Shown: piece by piece, positions 15,608 through 52,951 of the stretch
Layout of the letters: each line of letters starts with the position of its first letter
How positions within the stretch are numbered: position 1 is the first letter of the stretch
Origin: Theristus sp. LFF4_11
Taxonomy: Eukaryota; Nematoda; Chromadorea; Monhysterida; Xyalidae
Length of the DNA: 64,000 bases
Direction: 5' to 3'
Assembly (NCBI GenBank): GCA_030248135.1
Contig: JASANC010001587.1
Location: 1-64,000, forward strand
The notes under the pieces: generated by a model
What the model was told of the DNA's origin: nothing
The model's database searches: none
What the model saw: the letters and a program-made list of their open reading frames with translations, nothing else
Position numbers and translations under genes: made by a program

Positions 15608-15779
15608 CGGGTTGAAACTCCACAAGACGACGACAATGACAGTTGTATCACCGATGAAGAACAGGTGTGTTGATCGGTAAATTGTTACTGTTTTTCTGTT
15701 TTGTTTTTTATTGTCTGTGCTTTGTTTAAACCAAGGACAACTTTATCCAGCTGTTGCATGGTTCCTTTCTTCAATTGGG
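15608..15779 (+). repeat. Left copy of Penelope-like element terminal direct repeat
   Basis: Near-identical to 20650-20822. It contains the end of ORF1 exon 1 (ETPQDDDNDSCITDEEQ), the donor CAGgtgtgt at 15663-15671 and the start of the ORF1 intron. The 5' UTR and ORF1 start codon are missing from this copy. Confidence 0.85.
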
Positions 15780-16001
15780 ATTACCACAGGTCTATGTGTG
15801 AGGCGTGGTGTCTCTGGCACCCGCTCCAGATAGAATTGTGGCTTTTCTTACTGTTTCCATTTTCTAGTTTTTGTTTTCGTTCTTTTCTACGTCTGCTTGC
15901 AGTTTGTTTCTCTTTGTTGCTCAATTTCAGTAACAGCATTTAGTTTTATTGTTGGCTCATCATCTTTTTAGCCCTTTCTGTCCTTTTTGCCCTTGTGGCA
16001 T

Positions 16002-16190
16002 GCATTACCGACGTTTGTCGGCCGCCCCTTCTTGGGGACTGCATTACCGACTTCGGTCGGACGCCCCTTTTGGGGACTGCATTATCGGCGTATGCCGACC
16101 GCCCCGACTCTGGTCGGGGACTGCATTAACGGCCTCTAAGGTCGTCCACCCTTCGGGGTACGCATTTTGGGCCTTCTGGCCCATTTCCAC
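16002..16190 (+). ncRNA. Tandem array of paired hairpins in the ORF1 intron
   Basis: Units start at 16002, 16041, 16079, 16123 and (partial) 16162, each opening with GCATT. Each full unit has two small hairpins. First stems: CGAC-gttt-GTCG, CGAC-ttcg-GTCG, CGGC-gtat-GCCG, CGGCC-tctaa-GGTCG, GGGCC-ttct-GGCCC. Second stems: CCCC-ttct-GGGG, CCCC-tttt-GGGG, CCCCGAC-tct-GGTCGGGG, CCACCC-tt-CGGGGT. Stem bases change on both sides together while loops drift freely, which is covariation supporting structured RNA. A short TGCC/GGCA hairpin precedes the array. It lies on the sense strand of the ORF1 intron (15669-16303). Function unknown. Confidence 0.6.
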
Positions 16191-16303
16191 TTCTCTTTTC
16201 TTCTTTTGGATATAGTTGATCATACAGATTTTTCGATTAATTTTTATATGCTGTTTTTAGTCATAGTCACTTCTTGTTTTGCTACGATCTATTTGTTATT
16301 TAG

Positions 16304-17008
16304 GAGGCTGATACTGGTAATCGTTCGCACTCTACCAGCTCTGCTAAGTCGAGTTCAGGCTCTAGTGTTGCTAAACAGGCTGAGTTGCGTAAGGCTATTC
16401 AGCGAATTGAGGCGCTTGAGCGAAATGGTGCGAGTGCACGCAAGCAAATTGGTGCGGTTTCTAAACGACTTGACCACGTCGAACGCGCTACAAAGGCCAA
16501 CGGCATTCGCATCTATTGGATGGATCGCGAAACCGGTGGTCCGAATCTGGAGCAACAAGTTCGGCAATTTTTTGTCAAGTCGCTAGAGATGCCCGCCGAA
16601 GAAGAAGCTGGTCTGCGTATTGCCAACGTCCACACCGAAGAGCAAGGCAAGTGCGTCGTCGTCAACTTCTGCGAATCGCGCCACTTCTATCGTGTCCTAG
16701 AACTAAAGAAGAACCTCAAGAAGCACCCAAATGCGCAGAACAAGCCGGTGTCGATTGTCAAAGATCTGAGTGAAGTCGACCGTTTCGAGCAGCGCAAAGC
16801 CGCGCTTGTGCGCAAACGTCTGGAAGAGAAAGAAAAGAAAGTCGTGAACAAAACGCACGTTTTTCTGGTCGTTGATTCGGTTGAAGGTCACTATTCGAAG
16901 TTTCTTGCGATGGCCGACATCTCAAAAGCACGGCTTGAAAAAGAAGTGATCGATCAAATGAATAAGAAACGTGCTGAAGCCATGAAGAATAAGACGGCGG
17001 CAAATTGA
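16304..17008 (+). CDS. Penelope-like element ORF1, exon 2 (coiled-coil, L1-ORF1p-like)
   Basis: The frame opens right after an acceptor ttgttatttag (ends 16303) and runs to TGA at 17006 (234 codons). It joins in phase 0 to exon 1 ending ...ITDEEQ/gtgtgt, seen fully at 20584-20706 and partly at 15608-15668. N-terminal Ser-rich linker, then a coiled coil (LRKAIQRIEALERNGAS), then a globular part (IRIYWMDRETGGPNLEQQVR, KCVVVNFCESRHFYRVLEL, VSIVKDLSEVDRFEQRKAAL). The order of coiled coil, RRM-like and basic C-terminal domain recalls LINE-1 ORF1p/Transposase_22 RNA-binding proteins. This is a recognition by pattern, not an alignment. No in-frame ATG exists in exon 2 before the coiled coil, which supports splicing from exon 1. 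This copy lacks the start. Confidence 0.65.
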   Translation, partial: EADTGNRSHSTSSAKSSSGSSVAKQAELRKAIQRIEALERNGASARKQIGAVSKRLDHVERATKANGIRIYWMDRETGGPNLEQQVRQFFVKSLEMPAEEEAGLRIANVHTEEQGKCVVVNFCESRHFYRVLELKKNLKKHPNAQNKPVSIVKDLSEVDRFEQRKAALVRKRLEEKEKKVVNKTHVFLVVDSVEGHYSKFLAMADISKARLEKEVIDQMNKKRAEAMKNKTAAN

Positions 17009-17315
17009 CTGTTTTAGGCAAATTGTGTGCTTTGGTTTTTAGCCTTTGAGCGTTCTGTCACTGGTATTAGTTCCATTGGTTCGTGATTTTGTTTTTCTTA
17101 TTTTTGTCTCATTTATTCCCTTGGGTTATTTGACAGTACGTCCTTTTTGTTGCTGCTTTGTGTTTTTCGCGGTTTTTAGTTTTCGACCTTTAGTTTGCTA
17201 ACTATTTTAGTTGCATAAAAGTCTGTTTAGTGCTTTGGTTTCTGCTTCTTTCTTTTTGCATTAATGGGGGGAGCTGTACCTCCTGCGAAGAGCAAAACAA
17301 CCAGCGGGACCGGGT

Positions 17316-20300
17316 ATGGATCTGGTTAAAAGTCACGGTGTATGCCGGCACATGTGGCGCCTAGCCTCCGGTCTGACGGTGGTCGTACCTGGGAAACCGG
17401 GGAGGGACTTCCTTAACCGCGGCAGCCCCGCGGATCCCTCCGGCATCTTCTATCTCATAGGAGGAGTCGCCTATGAGAACGGAAGTAAAACCCATCGGCC
17501 CACGAACCAAAACAATACTTATACCAAAAAAGTTGCATGCATTAAGCTTAACCTCAATGATGACACTTCGCCAGCTGTAAGTTGGTGGTCTAAAAAGCTG
17601 ATTGGAACCAATGCAACCAAAGCCTGTGGAGAACGCTTTTGTAAAGTTTGTGTCAGTGTTGATCAGGATAAACTAGTTACTGCTCACGCAACAAATATCC
17701 AATATCAAATGATTTCTTACTCTCAATCTTCGTGCAAATCCAAAAATGTTGTTTACCTCATCTCCTGTCGTAAATGTGGTTTTCAGTATGTCGGGCAGAC
17801 AGCCCGAATGCTGAAACAACGAATTATGGAGCATCAACGCAGTATTCGTAACAAAGATAAACAGACGTTGCTGGTGCGTCACTTTACGCAAAATGGACAT
17901 TGTGTTGACGATCTCAAGGTGAGGGTGTTGTTCTGTCTGGAGAACGAAAATGTTGATAGTTCAAAAATGAGGTCTCAATTACTTATTGTTGAGAATTTCT
18001 TGATTCGGCTACTTTGCACTGCTTTTCCTTTTGGTCTGAATGACAAGATTGACAACTACGGCAAAATTACAGAAGATCTTTCTTGTTTCAAACAAAAAGG
18101 TTCACCTTTTTTCACTCAGTCAATCCGCCGTAGAAGAAGGAATCACGGTCAGAAGAAACACAGAACCAAAAGGAAATGTGCAACAAACACTGCTAATAGG
18201 TTAGCAACGTTATATCAGGAAAATCCTTCCGATAGAAAAGGCATGTTTCACACTCTGAACTCTGCACGTAGATGTGAATTGATCCAGACCGAAAGGACAG
18301 TTCTTAAAGAAAACTGTACTGGACAAAGTGCAACCGTAAGACGTATTGTTCAAGCTTTTCTTTCAGGCAAGTTTCACAACAGACTAGATGAAAGGGCTCG
18401 TAAAGAGCCCTCGACTTTTTGCAATATTCCGTTTGTTGATAAGAAGCTTGAATTCCTGAAGTTGGAAACTTTGTTTAAAGATCATCGCATTTTGTCTCTT
18501 GCACCTACACGCACTATCCAGAAGTTGAAAAATGTAAGAGTTGTGTATTCTTATGATAAACCTATCAGTGGACTGCTCTGTAACCACAGTAAACTGCTCA
18601 AATCCCTTACGCCCCCTCTTCTCTCTTCAATTATTCACGGCGTTTGCGAGTGTGAACAAAGTGAATTCAAGCATCCTGTTTTCAATCATGTTATCACTGG
18701 GGACCTTAATATTATTCAAGATGACAAGCTACGTGAACTGTTTAGCAAAGGTTCAAAATTCAGACTGTCTAATAAAAGTAAGTCGTGGACCGAAATTCAT
18801 GATATTTTGATTGAAGCTGTACATGATTTTTTGTGTAAAATCGCTAAATTATGTCATGTTAATGTTCATGAGCTTATTCGTGTTCGTATTCTTTTGGAAA
18901 AATTGATTTGCAATAGAATCAGTTTTTTCAATACAGTTCATCGCAATTCTAGTGCTTACTCTGTCAAATTTCCTCATTTCGAACTCAAAAATCTTCATGC
19001 TCGATATGTCATTGCCCAAGCCGATAAAGCGAGTAACAATTTTGTTGTTATCTGTAAAAAGTTTTATCTCCAAGTTATGTGCACTGAAATGGGAGTCCAA
19101 TTTGATGGAGAAGGGAATATGAGGAATGGTGGCAATAATGTTTATCATCCTGTTGCTAAAAATGAGTTTGACATTGTTGATTTTCATTCTAAAGTTAGCT
19201 CAACCTTTGGTGTTGTTTGTCAAAGCTCTGATCTTGTTCTCCCTACCATCTTCACTATTCCAAAGCTGCATAAAGATCCGTACTCATTCAGATTTATTGC
19301 TGGTGCCAGGCAATCCAGTTGCAAAGCAATCAATACCTTGCTTCACAAGATTCTGTGTGCCCTTCAAACGCATTTCAGGCATTACTGCAGGCAGGTTTTA
19401 TCAAACAACGGCATACATTGTTTTTGGGCCGTCAAGAACAACCTGGACGTGTTGGGTATGTTACAAAGTCTTGATAAAATTGACAGCATTGTTTCGGCTG
19501 ATTTTAGCACGCTATATACTGCCTTACCTCATCAAGTTATTTATGACAGCCTTGACAATATTGTCAATATTTGTTTCAAAAACTCCAGAAAGAGATTTCT
19601 ATGTCTGTCAAAACATTCTGACTACTACCAATATTGTGATAGCAAACTGCCTGGTTTGCTGTCCTTCGACAGCACTGAGATCAAAGACATGATTAGATTC
19701 GTAGTTGGAGAAACTTATGTTAAATTTGCAGGGGGTATTTACCGCCAAGTTCTAGGCATCCCAATGGGTTCAGTTAGTGCTCCTAAACTTGCTTGTTTAA
19801 CCTTAACAGGACTTGAATACAAATATCTTACTGATCGCAGGAATAAAGAAAATATTGCGAAACTTGGCTATGCATGTCGTTATATTGATGATTTACTTGT
19901 TTTGAATTGTGAGAATTTTATGGATATCGCTAAAGATATTTATCCCCCTACCATTCCGCTTAATAAGTCTAACGATGTTAAAACGGAGGCCAACTTTTTG
20001 GACCTTAAAATCAACGTTGATAGGGGGTTGAAGGTTGACATTTACGATAAAACTCGAGATTTTCACTTTAAAGTGCTCAAGTATGTTCATGCAGATAGCC
20101 TGACTCATTCCTCTGTTGGCTATAACATTTTTTCTGCCCAGTCCATGCGCTTTGCTCGCGTTTGTTCCGACAAAAAAGACTTTGCTCACAACGTCAAACT
20201 TCTTTGTTCCACTCTCATTGATCAAGGGTTTACAAGAGAAAAGATTCTTTGCCGTCTTTTCCGTTTTGGTGCTTCAAATACTAATGCTCTTCTCAAATTC

Positions 20301-20351
20301 GGACTTGACCAACCAACTAAAATGGTTGCCTTTGCTCTGTCTGTTGTTTGA
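17316..20351 (+). CDS. Penelope-like element ORF2: N-terminal GIY-YIG endonuclease plus reverse transcriptase
   Basis: 1011 codons with no frameshift or stop. Residues ~108-120: cysteine cluster CGERFCKVC. Residues ~144-180: GIY-YIG nuclease core (VVYLISC ... YVGQTARMLKQRIMEHQ). A basic linker (RRRRRNHGQKKHRTKRK) lies near residue 275. The RT occupies ~580-940: upstream block ADKASNNFVVICKK, IPKLHKDP...RFIAGARQSS, motif A DFSTLYTALPH (~729), motif B VLGIPMGSVSAPK (~814), motif C YIDDLL (~856), and NFLDLKI. The C-terminus has no second nuclease. Penelope-like enzymes copy their RNA by target-primed synthesis; GIY-YIG supplies the nick. ATG at 17316 is the first in frame but lies in a GC-rich hairpin-dense stretch, so true initiation could be further in. 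Confidence 0.93.
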   Translation: MDLVKSHGVCRHMWRLASGLTVVVPGKPGRDFLNRGSPADPSGIFYLIGGVAYENGSKTHRPTNQNNTYTKKVACIKLNLNDDTSPAVSWWSKKLIGTNATKACGERFCKVCVSVDQDKLVTAHATNIQYQMISYSQSSCKSKNVVYLISCRKCGFQYVGQTARMLKQRIMEHQRSIRNKDKQTLLVRHFTQNGHCVDDLKVRVLFCLENENVDSSKMRSQLLIVENFLIRLLCTAFPFGLNDKIDNYGKITEDLSCFKQKGSPFFTQSIRRRRRNHGQKKHRTKRKCATNTANRLATLYQENPSDRKGMFHTLNSARRCELIQTERTVLKENCTGQSATVRRIVQAFLSGKFHNRLDERARKEPSTFCNIPFVDKKLEFLKLETLFKDHRILSLAPTRTIQKLKNVRVVYSYDKPISGLLCNHSKLLKSLTPPLLSSIIHGVCECEQSEFKHPVFNHVITGDLNIIQDDKLRELFSKGSKFRLSNKSKSWTEIHDILIEAVHDFLCKIAKLCHVNVHELIRVRILLEKLICNRISFFNTVHRNSSAYSVKFPHFELKNLHARYVIAQADKASNNFVVICKKFYLQVMCTEMGVQFDGEGNMRNGGNNVYHPVAKNEFDIVDFHSKVSSTFGVVCQSSDLVLPTIFTIPKLHKDPYSFRFIAGARQSSCKAINTLLHKILCALQTHFRHYCRQVLSNNGIHCFWAVKNNLDVLGMLQSLDKIDSIVSADFSTLYTALPHQVIYDSLDNIVNICFKNSRKRFLCLSKHSDYYQYCDSKLPGLLSFDSTEIKDMIRFVVGETYVKFAGGIYRQVLGIPMGSVSAPKLACLTLTGLEYKYLTDRRNKENIAKLGYACRYIDDLLVLNCENFMDIAKDIYPPTIPLNKSNDVKTEANFLDLKINVDRGLKVDIYDKTRDFHFKVLKYVHADSLTHSSVGYNIFSAQSMRFARVCSDKKDFAHNVKLLCSTLIDQGFTREKILCRLFRFGASNTNALLKFGLDQPTKMVAFALSVV

Positions 20352-20381
20352 TTTTTGCCTTTTGTATTTCAGCTCCTTGTT

Positions 20382-20463
20382 GTTCGACTAGCATCACACT
20401 GATGATGGGCCACTAGTCGAACGAGTCGAACACGTCTGTGATTCGGGCCCGAAACGTGTTCGA
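20382..20463 (+). ncRNA. Candidate split hammerhead ribozyme of the Penelope-like element
   Basis: Two adjacent hairpins. Hairpin 1: GTTCGACTAG (20382-20391) with CTAGTCGAAC (20413-20422), loop 21 nt containing ATCACA-CTGATGA-t-GGGCC. Hairpin 2: TCGAACACG (20426-20434) with CGTGTTCGA (20455-20463), loop containing TC-TGTGAT-tcg-GGCCC-GAAA. The loops complement each other: ATCACA with TGTGAT (6 pairs, stem I) and GGGCC with GGCCC (5 pairs, stem II); hairpin 2 is stem III. All conserved hammerhead residues are placed correctly: CUGAUGA, GAAA, and a GUC cleavage site (after 20436). One extra U follows CUGAUGA. Hammerheads are established in Penelope-like elements, but here strand order is not a cyclic permutation of the known types. 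Cleavage is inferred, not shown. Confidence 0.6.
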
Positions 20464-20583
20464 TTCCATAATTTTCTCTCGCTGATCTACATGCTATTTT
20501 GTGCTGTTCCAGGTTCACCGTCTGTAGAATTTCGACAAAGGACTGTTGCTGGCTTCAATTTCGATCATTTTCACAACGACATA

Positions 20584-20706
20584 ATGGGACGTTCGCACAA
20601 ACACGCTGGCTCGAATGATAAACGACGTTTTGCAACCGCTAAGCGACAACGGGTTGAAACTCCACAAGACGACGACAATGACAGTTGTATCACCGATGAA
20701 GAACAG
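20584..20706 (+). CDS. ORF1 exon 1 of the downstream partial Penelope-like copy
   Basis: Starts at ATG 20584 and ends at CAG before the donor gtgtgttg (20707). It encodes 41 residues: a basic, nuclear-localisation-like N-terminus (MGRSHKHAGSNDKRRF, AKRQR) and an acidic tail (DDDNDSCITDEEQ). Splicing would be in phase 0 to an exon equivalent to 16304-17008, but that exon is absent downstream because this copy stops at 20822. Confidence 0.6.
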
Positions 20707-20822
20707 GTGTGTTGATCGGTAAATTGTTACTGTTTTTCTGTTTTGTTTTTTATTGTCTGTGCTTTGTTTAAACCAAGGACAACTTTATCCAGCTGTTGCA
20801 TGGTTCCTTTCTTCAATTGGGG
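20650..20822 (+). repeat. Right copy of Penelope-like element terminal direct repeat
   Basis: Matches 15608-15779 almost perfectly and then stops abruptly at the junction with the long foldback element (cttcaattgggg / attggcgagagc). Confidence 0.85.
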
Positions 20823-48254: not shown

Positions 48255-51200
48255 TCAGTCGACCTCCTCCATGCGCGACGCGTCCTCGGCTGCGTCAGCG
48301 ACCGGCGTCGCCTCAACGTCAGCCTCCACACCGGATGCACCGGCCTCGTCTTCATCGTCGTCAATCGCTGAAACAGAAAATCGCTGAGTTTGTCACAGGA
48401 TTCGCAATTTGTGACATTCACTCGAACAGCTAGCACCACAACGCAGATTAGACTGATCAGTGAGCATTCACCAATTCATCGTTCACTCAGTTTGTGTACT
48501 TGAATTGAGCTCACTATGGATGGTACAAAACAGTGTGAATAATGTCAGCGCCGTACGAAAACCTTAGCATACTGGAAAGCAGCTAAAGAGCAGACAACGC
48601 AGAACAAGGTTACATTCTTGCTTCTCGTACTTACTGCAGCTTGGCGCGTGACAGCCGTTCAAGATGCAGTAAAAAATCAAGAAGCTGTGGTGAACTAGTT
48701 CCTCATGTCGGGCCGAAATGACTTCATGTATTGGATTTTGAATCCCATCACACAAAAAATGTGAAATTGAATCACTTGACAAATCACAACTAAAAATCTG
48801 GTGCACGAACATGCCAAACGGGCGTTTATGGCGTCATTTTGTGCCAACACGTTCGACAACATAGAATTCAGTTGCAATTTCAAACAACATGCAGTTTCTA
48901 AACAACAACATAGAAATGCAAACGAAACAACAAAAGACAGAGACGGTATTGCGAACCAAGGCCGAGTTTGATCATGCGATAGATGCGGTGCGCGTGCGTC
49001 TGCGGCTCCTCGAGCGTGAAGCCGGACGAGAGGAGCGCCGTCTCGAACAGCAGCATCACCAGATCCTTGACCGTCTTGTCGTTCTTGTCCGCCTCGACGC
49101 GCGTGCACAGCTGCTTCATGATCGCGTGGTCCGGGTTGATCTCGAGGTGCTTCTTCGCTGCCATGTAGCTGAAACCGGTGCACATGTTGATGTTGGTGAC
49201 ACCAATCCACCTTGTTCATTCGCTTCCATTCGAAATTTGCTTTCACCAACAAAATGGGGTCTCATCAGCGTCGGTGCTTCAAACGTACCCCATGGTGGAG
49301 GAGTCCCTGAGCGCCTGCGCCTTCATGATGCGCTCCATGTTTGCCGACCAGCCGTACTCAGACGTCACGATGCAGCACGGAGAGCTCACCAACCGGTTGG
49401 ACACGGTCACCTGCGATACGATGCTCGGGTTCGATTTATCCGCCAATTTCTTTATTCATGATTTCAAACTTCAGTTCAAAAGTCAAAAATTCTAAATTCC
49501 CTGCTAGTTCATGCGATGTCATTTAATTCACTTCTAAACTATGCGATATGAATTAACGCTCAATCAAACTGCAGCTCACCTTTTCGACCTTCTTCTCGAG
49601 AATGTCCTTCATGACCTTGCACAGTTTCTCGAATTTCACCTTGTCCTCCTCAAACTTCTTCTTTTCCTCGTCGTCTTCCGGCAGCTCAAGGCCTTCCTTC
49701 GTGACCGAGACCAGCTTCTTGCCGTCGAATTCTGAAAAAACAGTCGACGAAGTAAGAGATTTGTAGCAACCAGCCAAGTGAATAAACAAAACAGTGTTCA
49801 AATAAAAGACTGAGAATCAAATGAGACGCGTCACCTTTCAGCTGCTGCACAGCGTACTCGTCGATCGGGTCGACCATGTAGAGCACCTCGAAGCCACGCT
49901 TCTTGACCCGTTCGACAAACGCAGAGTTGGCGACCGCCTCGCGAGATTCACCCGTGATGTAGTAGATGTGCTTTTGGTTTTCCTGAAATCGTTTTGCAAT
50001 TCAGTTTTTTAAACAAATCATAATCACTCACTATTATAAGTGCATCCAATTTCTTTTAGCGTACCTTCATCCTGCTGACGTAGTCCTTGAGCGACGTCGT
50101 CTCCTCGCCGGACGATGAAGAATGATAGCGCAGAAATTCAGCCAACTTTTTGCGATTCACCGAATCCTCGTGAATGCCGAGCTGAAATGAAACTCGAGAA
50201 ATGCGTAACTTGCGCGATAGAACTCCAGTGCTCGACTGAGTAAACTTTGCAACTCAGCAATTGATAGAATGTCAGTCACTTCTGTCACGGGGACAGTTTC
50301 AGTCCCGAAAGATGTGAAAACCATCATCGTTTGTGAAAATATGAAACATCTCCAATAATCCAGTGAGCGATTCAACCAACCTTGACATTTTTGCCGAACT
50401 GATCGTAGAACTTCTTGTAGTTGTCCTTGTCCTCGGCGAGTTCACTGATCAGCTCCATGCACTTCTTGACGAGATTCTTCCTGATGACCTTGAGGATCTT
50501 GGACTGTTGCAGCATTTCACGACTGATGTTCAGTGGGAGATCTTCGCTGTCGACGACACCCTGCAAATGTGACATTCACAGCACAGCGGAGGACTCGAGG
50601 CAGTTTATTTGTAAGTAAACCAGTGCGGCGAGTGGTAACATCAAAAGCTGTCGCCCAGTTAAGTTGCAGTGCTTTTAGGAAACTGTCCCGTGTGAATCCC
50701 TGACAACTCCAAGAACGCACCTTGATGAAGTTGAGGTATTCGGGCATGAGCTCCTCGCAGTTCTCCATGATGAAGACGCGGCGAACGTAGAGCTTGATGG
50801 CGTTCTTGGACTTGCGATTCTCGAACAGGTCGAACGGAGCGCGCTGTGGCACGAACAGGAGGGCACTGGAAACAGCAATATGTTGACAGTGGTATGCGAT
50901 TAAATAGAGAGAATTTTGATGCATGACAAAGCTAATCAGTTTCGCAACTAACCGCTCGATCTGCAAACATATGTAAGCTCAGCTCACTTTTGGTCCAACC
51001 ATCTCGATGCAGCCAAACAGCCAACGAGCTAGCTTCTTGGACCAGTGACTCGGAAACAGCCAATCAGCCGTGTGCCCATAATTTACAGTACGATTGTGAA
51101 GTTTTCTGAAAAGACACCAACCGGAACTCGAGTTGCCCCTCGACCGAGAAGTGTTTCACGGCCAAATGGTCCTCCCAGTCGTTCGAGAGCGACTTGTAGA

Positions 51201-52951
51201 ACTCGGCGTACTCCTCGTTCGAGATGTCGTCAGGATTGCGCGTCCAGATGGGCTTCGTCTTGTTCAGCTCCTCATCGTCCATGTACTTCTCCTTGATCTT
51301 CTTCTTCTTCTTTTTCTTGTCGCCCTTCTTCTCCTCGTCCTCTTCCTCGTCGCTGCCGACGTCCTCCAGCTTCGGCATGTCCTTGTCCTCTTCGCCTTCT
51401 AGAAAGTTTGAGAAAAGTAAATTTTCAAAAAGGGATCAGTTTCAAAGCTTCTCAATCTCAATCTCACTTCAAACCTTCAATTGTCAATCTCACATTTGCC
51501 GCTGCAAAGCACAGCATAATCAAACGCATGACCCTTCAAACGCCACGCACCTTTCTTCTGTTCGTCCTTCTTCTCGTCCGCCTCCTCCTCGTCGTCGCTG
51601 ACCTCCTTGTCGCGTTCACGCTCAATCAGCAGCCTGATCGGATAGCCAATGAACTGCGAGTGCTTCTTGGTGACCTCCTTGATGCGGCGCTCCTCGAGGT
51701 ACTCCATCTGGTCCTCCTTCAGGTACAGCGTGATCTTGGTACCGCGGGTCAGCTCCGGGTCTGCAAACAAACACACCTGGTTGCGTTCTAATGTGAATCA
51801 GGCTAACAATTCCAGTTGGACAGTTGTTTCGTTAATCAGGAATCGATTCATCAGTGCCTTGTACAGGAATTATGCATCATTATTCTTTCAGAGACTCTAG
51901 TCCAAAAGGCAGGAACTCATCACACGATTTCGATTCACAGCTATATCCTATGCATCGCAGATGACAGGACACCAGCGCAGTTGCTTGTGAATGCAGTGCA
52001 CCACCAACCAACAGAGGCAACAACCCGTTGCTGGTGGCCACCAGCATTTGTCTCATCACTCGATCACCAGACCAACCGTTATACGGTCGAATGGTGAACG
52101 ATCCGCCGGCGGACGACTCCCACTGGTGTCCGTCGTCGTCGTTGTGCTTGCTCGTCACGACCACGCGGTCAGCGACCAAGTACGCCGAATAGAAACCGAC
52201 GCCGAACTGGCCGATCATCGAGATGTCCGCACCGGCCTGCAACGCCTCCATGAACGCCTTCGTGCCGGAGCGCGCGATCGTGCCGAGGTTGTTGATCAGA
52301 TCAGCCTTCGTCATGCCGATGCCTGAATGCGTTTGGGCTTGCAAAATCACATGCACGGGGACGGGGGAAAACTAAATTAACTTAGACAACAAACAGAACA
52401 GCCTCAGCTCGGTTCGAGTCGTCACACAAAGAAAACATGGCGGCATTGTTGGCTTCTTGCTCGCAGAACAAGCAAAGGAACAGAAAGCAAAACTCGTGTT
52501 CTTAATTTGAATGTACCAGTGTCAATGATGGTGAACGTTTTCTCGGCCTTGTTTGGCACAATCTTGATGTAGAGATCGCGGCCGGTCTCCAACTGTGACG
52601 GATCCGTCAGCGACTCGTAGCGGATCTTGTCCAGAGCCTGAGGAGCATAGAGATACGCGAATTGAATCCGAACACCGAAACTCCGTAACGCCGCTTTGAT
52701 CTTGTCTTGAATCCACGCTGTTGGCGTTTGTTAGAAAACCAGTTTCAAAGCAATAAAATCTTGCTATCCTCGATCACTTCACTTACATCACTGGAGTTCG
52801 AAATCAACTCGCGCAGGAAGATCTCCTTGTTGCTGTAGAAGGTGTTGATGATCAGCGACATCAACTGCGCGATCTCAGCCTGGAACGCGAACGTCTCGGC
52901 CTCGCCGGCGACAGCACCATCGGCCATGTTCTCAGTGTTGTTCTCAGACAT
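48255..52951 (-). CDS. HSP90: Cytosolic HSP90 chaperone, complete, 13 coding exons
   Basis: Exons (minus): 52951-52787, 52637-52517, 52322-52077, 51760-51551, 51398-51122, 50865-50721, 50560-50381, 50181-50065, 49982-49835, 49731-49580, 49410-49289, 49168-48957, 48367-48255; 735 aa. The N-terminal ATPase has [28 protein letters not shown] (catalytic Glu and ATP-binding Asn), DTGIGMT and [13 protein letters not shown]. An acidic charged linker ([15 protein letters not shown]) follows, then the middle domain with its Arg loop region and the C-terminal dimerisation domain ([16 protein letters not shown]). The last residues MEEVD form the TPR-cocha­perone docking site typical of the cytosolic form. 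There is a 5'UTR intron (52964-53818) with a hAT MITE. Upstream heat-shock elements indicate HSF control. Some donors are non-consensus (gttggt, gttcgc, gtacgt), but phases all agree. Confidence 0.97.

Follow-up and report, generated by a model that had tools for sequence, protein, structure and literature searches.

The closest described systems to the RNA considered here are the hammerhead ribozymes of type CSG, one of three strand orders (SGC, CSG and GCS) that were described, and found to cleave, in 2023 (Eckert et al., PMC10085705). Block C carries CUGANGA, block S the cleavage site and block G the GAAA, and the classic types I, II and III have the cyclic order C-G-S. As presented in that paper, type CSG comprises two metagenome sequences, which resemble each other and show modest covariation, and its authors place it exclusively in metagenomes; CSG-1 and CSG-2 are single RNAs of 77-78 nt which cut themselves during transcription, with in vitro cleavage at 0.004 and 0.03 per minute (PMC10085705). 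At most 1-2 nt separate CUGANGA from its stems in the hammerhead alignments given there (PMC10085705). The hammerhead of the Anolis Penelope-like element PAc cuts only with added protein; in vitro, the main substrate is RNA left unprocessed, and insertion persists when the hammerhead is mutated (PMC11167929).

The window analysed here (the whole stretch of 64,000 nt) contains a frame of 1011 amino acids (17316-20351, + strand), with an N-terminal GIY-YIG endonuclease followed by a reverse transcriptase (RT), recognised by profile match and by motifs. Endonuclease profile PF01541 matches residues 144-185 of this frame at 22.0 bits, just below the 22.6 cut-off; it exceeds the cut-off in the related loci L031 (28.2 bits) and L032 (29.7 bits), and is weak in L034 (17.0 bits). 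RT family profiles gave no match to the window frame at 1e-3; the RT motifs are invariant in our alignment A1, and the CxC between endonuclease and RT (C444, C446) is invariant in 16 sequences. Penelope-like elements with an N-terminal endonuclease (Naiad/Chlamys) were reportedly defined by Craig et al. 2021 through a GIY-YIG domain before the RT, a CxC between the two, pseudo-LTRs and tandem copies, and it is by these features that we liken the present elements to them. The window copy is 5′-truncated (15608-20822, +); its stretch 15608-15779 repeats 20651-20822, giving a unit of 5,043 bp, and its 3′ end at 20822 is common to many copies. The pseudo-LTR unit (20027-20822, +), bounded by the ends of other copies, contains the RNA motif that concerns us.

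This motif occupies 82 nt (20382-20463, +) and begins 30 nt past the RT stop, where an earlier note on this DNA had placed it. Direct reading gives two adjoining hairpins which carry hammerhead strands in a non-cyclic order. Hairpin 1 (20382-20422, +) is closed by helix P0, of 10 Watson-Crick pairs (20382-20391 / 20413-20422), which connects stems I and II at their outer ends. Its loop (20392-20412) holds, in order, the 5′ strand of stem I (AUCACA, 20393-20398, block C), the core CUGAUGA (C3 to A9, 20399-20405, also block C; read directly and required by the descriptor used below), one unpaired U (20406) and the 5′ strand of stem II (GGGCC, 20407-20411). Hairpin 2 (20426-20463, +) is formed by the 10 pairs of stem III (20426-20435 / 20454-20463) and has the loop 20436-20453, which starts with C17 after GU, so completing the GUC triplet of block S (20434-20436). 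There follow the 3′ strand of stem I (UGUGAU, 20437-20442), a 3-nt bridge (UCG, 20443-20445) joining it to the 3′ strand of stem II (GGCCC, 20446-20450, block G), and GAAA (G12 to A15.1, 20451-20454, read directly), which leads into stem III. Stems I (6 bp) and II (5 bp) can form only from loop to loop. The cut is predicted between C20436 and U20437, by analogy with hammerheads and with CSG-1 and CSG-2.

The earlier note had thus correctly described both the adjoining hairpins, with hammerhead residues in their loops, and the loop-loop complementarity of 6 and 5 bp at stems I and II (20393-20398/20437-20442 and 20407-20411/20446-20450). Its hairpin lengths of 10 and 9 bp hold for the first; the second has 10, or 9 when the pair 20435-20454 (U16.1-A15.1) is assigned to the core. 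The unpaired U20406, absent from that description, recurs in L031 and is missing from most other families. The note's reading of a complete hammerhead core in non-cyclic strand order, its stems I and II made by pairing of the loops, beside a Penelope-like RT is supported by our analysis, but its premise that only cyclic hammerhead orders are known is not, SGC, CSG and GCS having been described as cleaving in 2023 (PMC10085705).

The order found in the window is C-S-G, and the cyclic order C-G-S was not found there; the arrangement is that of type CSG, and its topology was already known. In common with CSG-1 and CSG-2, as they are described rather than by letter-by-letter alignment, the window motif has loop-loop stems I and II, a helix joining these stems, the full core and a similar size (82 nt against 77-78 nt; PMC10085705). 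It differs from those two metagenome sequences, for which the parts of that paper used here give no host, in being represented by 14 variants, in a host assembly and in a defined retroelement. With types I, II and III, including the PAc ribozyme (PMC11167929), it shares core residues, the three stems, the kind of host element and the place in the pseudo-LTR, but its strand order is no cyclic permutation of theirs and it has two pseudoknots. What is new is therefore the host element and the sample of type CSG: we found no literature joining the CSG motif with N-terminal-endonuclease Penelope-like elements, although an earlier report in print is possible. We consider it very probable that the motif represents a hammerhead of type CSG (non-circularly permuted), which is carried by the pseudo-LTR of a GIY-YIG Penelope-like retroelement and cuts itself after C20436.

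Both hairpins are present in the minimum-energy fold, computed under a model that disallows pseudoknots, and none of 200 shuffles folded as well (z -4.35 for 106 nt, z -3.38 for the 82 nt). The same fold contains a competing hairpin within loop 1 (CAUCA/UGAUG) which masks core residues; this, together with the U that separates A9 from stem II in the family of the window, counts against the ribozyme reading. The loop 1 self-fold (20392-20406 in the window) can also form in L031 and L058, and core position 7 seems, by eye, to covary with its self-fold partner in several families. The self-fold could be an off state of the ribozyme.

Ordinary hammerhead models do not see this motif: in Rfam neither the window nor 20 loci reached a gathering threshold, and the best weak match scored 13.4 bits where type III requires 48.5. 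We searched with a descriptor (core letters, stems I, II and III, and closing helix P0), preferred since a covariance model of the two hairpins alone was weak: it gave 7 weak matches over 25 sources, missed most extended forms (described below), and scored the window motif (E 0.48) much like another place in the window (E 0.62). RNAalifold on a full-length alignment was likewise set aside, giving a poor structure of 6 pairs. The descriptor finds a single match in the window, with a score of 35. When the window was shuffled 2,894 times with its dinucleotides preserved, to a total of 370 million strand-bases, the descriptor gave, with no insert allowed, 4 matches at 21 or above and none at 23 or above; with inserts of up to 69 nt there were 86 at 21, 14 at 25, 2 at 27 and none at 29 or above. 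A chance or decayed resemblance deserves consideration, as a single sequence could mislead and the descriptor was composed after seeing the window motif. But shuffled DNA never approached the window score, as the earlier note had expected, and the recurrence and covariation set out below are further against chance, which we regard as scarcely credible. A descriptor for all six block orders, applied to 17 and to 19 loci, found nothing convincing beside CSG, and scans of viral contigs with the RT and a plasmid search with the ribozyme stretch gave no match.

The motif recurs widely in the window's own assembly (159 Mb, 3,744 contigs), where the ribozyme stretch gave 40 scored matches of 66 candidates. 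Among 30 loci fetched from close relatives of the window, 26 parse and 4 do not: L019 has a stem I mismatch, L020 and L021 begin after hairpin 1, and L022 is the fourth. The RT gave 88 scored matches of 219 candidates, and in the DNA beside 59 of these 88 (the 30 best, and 29 chosen for spread) the motif was found in 46, an extended form in 6 and neither in 7. All 30 of the best RT matches have the motif (L062 with one P0 mismatch), and the 29 spread-chosen elements comprise 16 with the motif, 6 with the extended form and 7 with neither within roughly 0.6-1.7 kb. The same arrangement follows own-assembly RTs of 33-36% identity, and RTs of 32% identity in L031 and L032. Five motif-less elements (C932, C2777, C1252, C2833 and C1794) have RT identities of 33-34%, and the two of them included in the RT tree (L119, L120) are near-identical; the match in C851 reaches only RT residue 400, and C1858 is a broken copy containing stops. 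Extra DNA around C932 and C1794 still contained no motif, and the descriptors found no hammerhead in L075, L078, L084, L087 and L090 (own assembly, RT identity 33-34%). From other genomes, seven loci encoding relatives were taken, on contigs binned as bacteria which we take as eukaryotic: two have the motif (L031, L032), one the extended form (L034) and four neither. Two of those four are RT fragments only, and a weak relaxed-core match in L035 (score 20) was not counted. Among relatives, scores of the standard form range from 22 to 37, with the L068 family as the weakest (score 22, stem II of 3 bp).

The covariation in related elements that the earlier note had asked for is seen in most elements examined. 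Fourteen distinct variants were placed in equal-length rows built from the motif blocks; since these are related, their cells are not independent events. Across them 98.9% of 266 cells are paired, a value owed partly to selection by a descriptor that requires pairing and core letters, and 17 of 19 pairs show double-sided changes (96 cells); none of 500 shuffles equalled these variants in any of five measures. Such changes affect 5/5, 3/4 and 4/5 pairs in stems I, II and III, and 5/5 counted pairs in P0, where 100% of cells are paired; sliding the partners out of register lowered pairing to 29-47%. CUGANGA is retained in 14/14 variants of alignment A3, the descriptor having required these letters.

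Because the descriptor selects for pairing, the choice of sites was repeated with P0, CUGANGA and hairpin III as the only criteria and blind to stems I and II, a step which removes selection for those two stems only. One site each was recovered in 13 of the 14 variants (L080 was missed), with at least 4 pairs in stem I and at least 3 in stem II; in L032 a second parse of the site has a stem I of 1. Shuffled loop-2 letters reached the same stems in 128 of 65,000 cases, and when strands were swapped between families (19 rows, extended forms included), full pairing was kept in 25/342 cases for stem I and 46/342 for stem II.

These data also bear on where the core forms. Hairpin 1 could act on the hairpin 2 of another RNA, or of another unit in one tandem RNA; each hairpin is stable alone, the elements can be tandem, and short Penelope-like hammerheads were reportedly seen to cleave as dimers (Lunse et al. 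2017). On the other hand, the hairpins adjoin in 14/14 variants (U16.1 follows the end of CUGANGA by 18-39 nt) and P0 covaries, both as expected of a unit acting in cis, and the type-CSG RNAs cleaved in cis (PMC10085705). We therefore hold a core formed exclusively between two RNAs or units to be improbable and infer that the motif folds, and is predicted to cut after C20436, in cis.

The type-CSG reading suggests the following course of events. Hairpins P0 and III would form first, and their loops would then pair through stems I and II, so rebuilding an ordinary hammerhead core, with P0 and the 3-nt bridge keeping these stems side by side. The RNA would then cut itself after C20436, leaving a 2′,3′-cyclic phosphate and a 5′-OH. 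Two occurrences of the motif stretch on one strand, separated by 4.96-5.04 kb, are found in 9 contigs (C825, C1818, C2632, C3612, C2555, C2619, C1861, C788 and C720), and both motifs of the pair were checked by descriptor in C825 (L009, L010) and C2632 (L025, L026). Since elements with both terminal repeats thus have two motifs about 5.0 kb from each other, cuts at both would free a unit-length RNA, which would start 147 nt before a candidate first exon (ATG 20584). The first-exon-like stretch beginning at this ATG ends before a GT near 20706.

The ends of inserted copies do not follow the predicted cut. This too counts against the ribozyme reading, as do the behaviour of PAc, the elements without the motif and the four close-relative loci that do not parse. 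Five copies have their 5′ end exactly at 20027 (L004, L006, L014, L025 and L028) and L015 at 20026, with differing flanks; other 5′ ends are scattered (for example 19125, 19735, 20035, 20098 and 20136, and 20651 in the window's own copy), and none lies at cut site 20437 among copies with a visible 5′ end. Position 20027 falls inside the RT frame and is possibly the start of the template RNA. As this commonest 5′ end precedes the cut by 410 nt, the RNA that served these copies as template was uncut at the first ribozyme, in agreement with PAc, for which unprocessed RNA is the main substrate (PMC11167929). Cleavage may trim, separate or limit transcripts rather than make template; the trimming or separation of tandem transcripts is a purpose that we suggest with reserve. 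The short copies L020 and L021 have their 5′ ends at 20423 and 20427, where a reverse transcriptase would meet the base of hairpin 1.

Insertion ends that ignore the cut site would also suit a structured RNA for protein binding or RT initiation, with hammerhead catalysis incidental or lost, and in another Penelope-like element the RT does initiate at an internal stem-loop (PMC11167929). But a plain protein-binding hairpin needs no catalytic letters, and here CUGANGA, GAAA and NUH are kept while four helices change; these letters were required by the descriptor, yet the motif stands behind 46 of the 59 RTs. A purely structural role accordingly seems to us quite unlikely, more so than a core formed between molecules.

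The extended form (L070, L076 with its copies L083 and L092, L079, L081, and the distant L034, which has it in both terminal repeats) has all parts of the motif, with 29-45 nt between CUGANGA and stem II, in each case two hairpins by eye. Whereas the window has a gap of 1 nt here, within the 1-2 nt limit of described hammerheads, the six own-genome extended elements and L034 exceed it. With scores of 21-28 they are less certain than motifs of the standard form; going by the shuffles, chance should give about 0.001 matches of at least 21 in a locus of 1.5 kb, and about 0.003 in L034. The RT tree unites the three extended rows of the own genome in a single branch (98/99) and has L034 on a long branch of unsure placement. 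Only 1 of 11 diverged L076-family copies fetched keeps all parts by the descriptor and the rest look decayed by eye; consequently no covariation is available for the inserted hairpins.

We suggest, at about even odds, that type CSG is the ordinary, long-inherited ribozyme of N-terminal-endonuclease Penelope-like elements, and that one branch accommodates two additional hairpins between CUGANGA and stem II and still works. These elements, to our knowledge, have been thought to have no self-cleaving ribozyme, and Craig et al. 2021 are said to have found them without canonical hammerhead motifs. The elements described here differ from that account in carrying a non-canonical one, which would reconcile the two; since ordinary hammerhead models miss the motif, the reported lack of a ribozyme may be an artefact of searching. 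Type CSG, which had been represented by two metagenome sequences lacking context, thereby becomes a recurring component of a class of animal retroelements, in variants numerous enough to define a consensus, and the N-terminal-endonuclease elements gain a candidate ribozyme missed by Rfam. It can now be tested why a non-cyclic order is retained, and whether helices inserted between A9 and stem II are compatible with the core.

Two further observations concern the surrounding DNA. An upstream frame in the window (16385-17008), to which Pfam gave no match, resembles positions 226-870 of L032 (20% over 134 amino acids, E 1e-4 in a single comparison). COX1 was not found in the own assembly, and an HSP90 gene, identified by its sequence relatives, lies in the window at 48952-51704 (- strand). 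Among the best 120 of its 7,993 matches, the nearest named relatives are mostly nematodes (72-79% identity), and the host is probably a nematode; the top match comes from a sand fly (71% over 85%), with sequences from fish, crustaceans, a centipede and a wasp also present.
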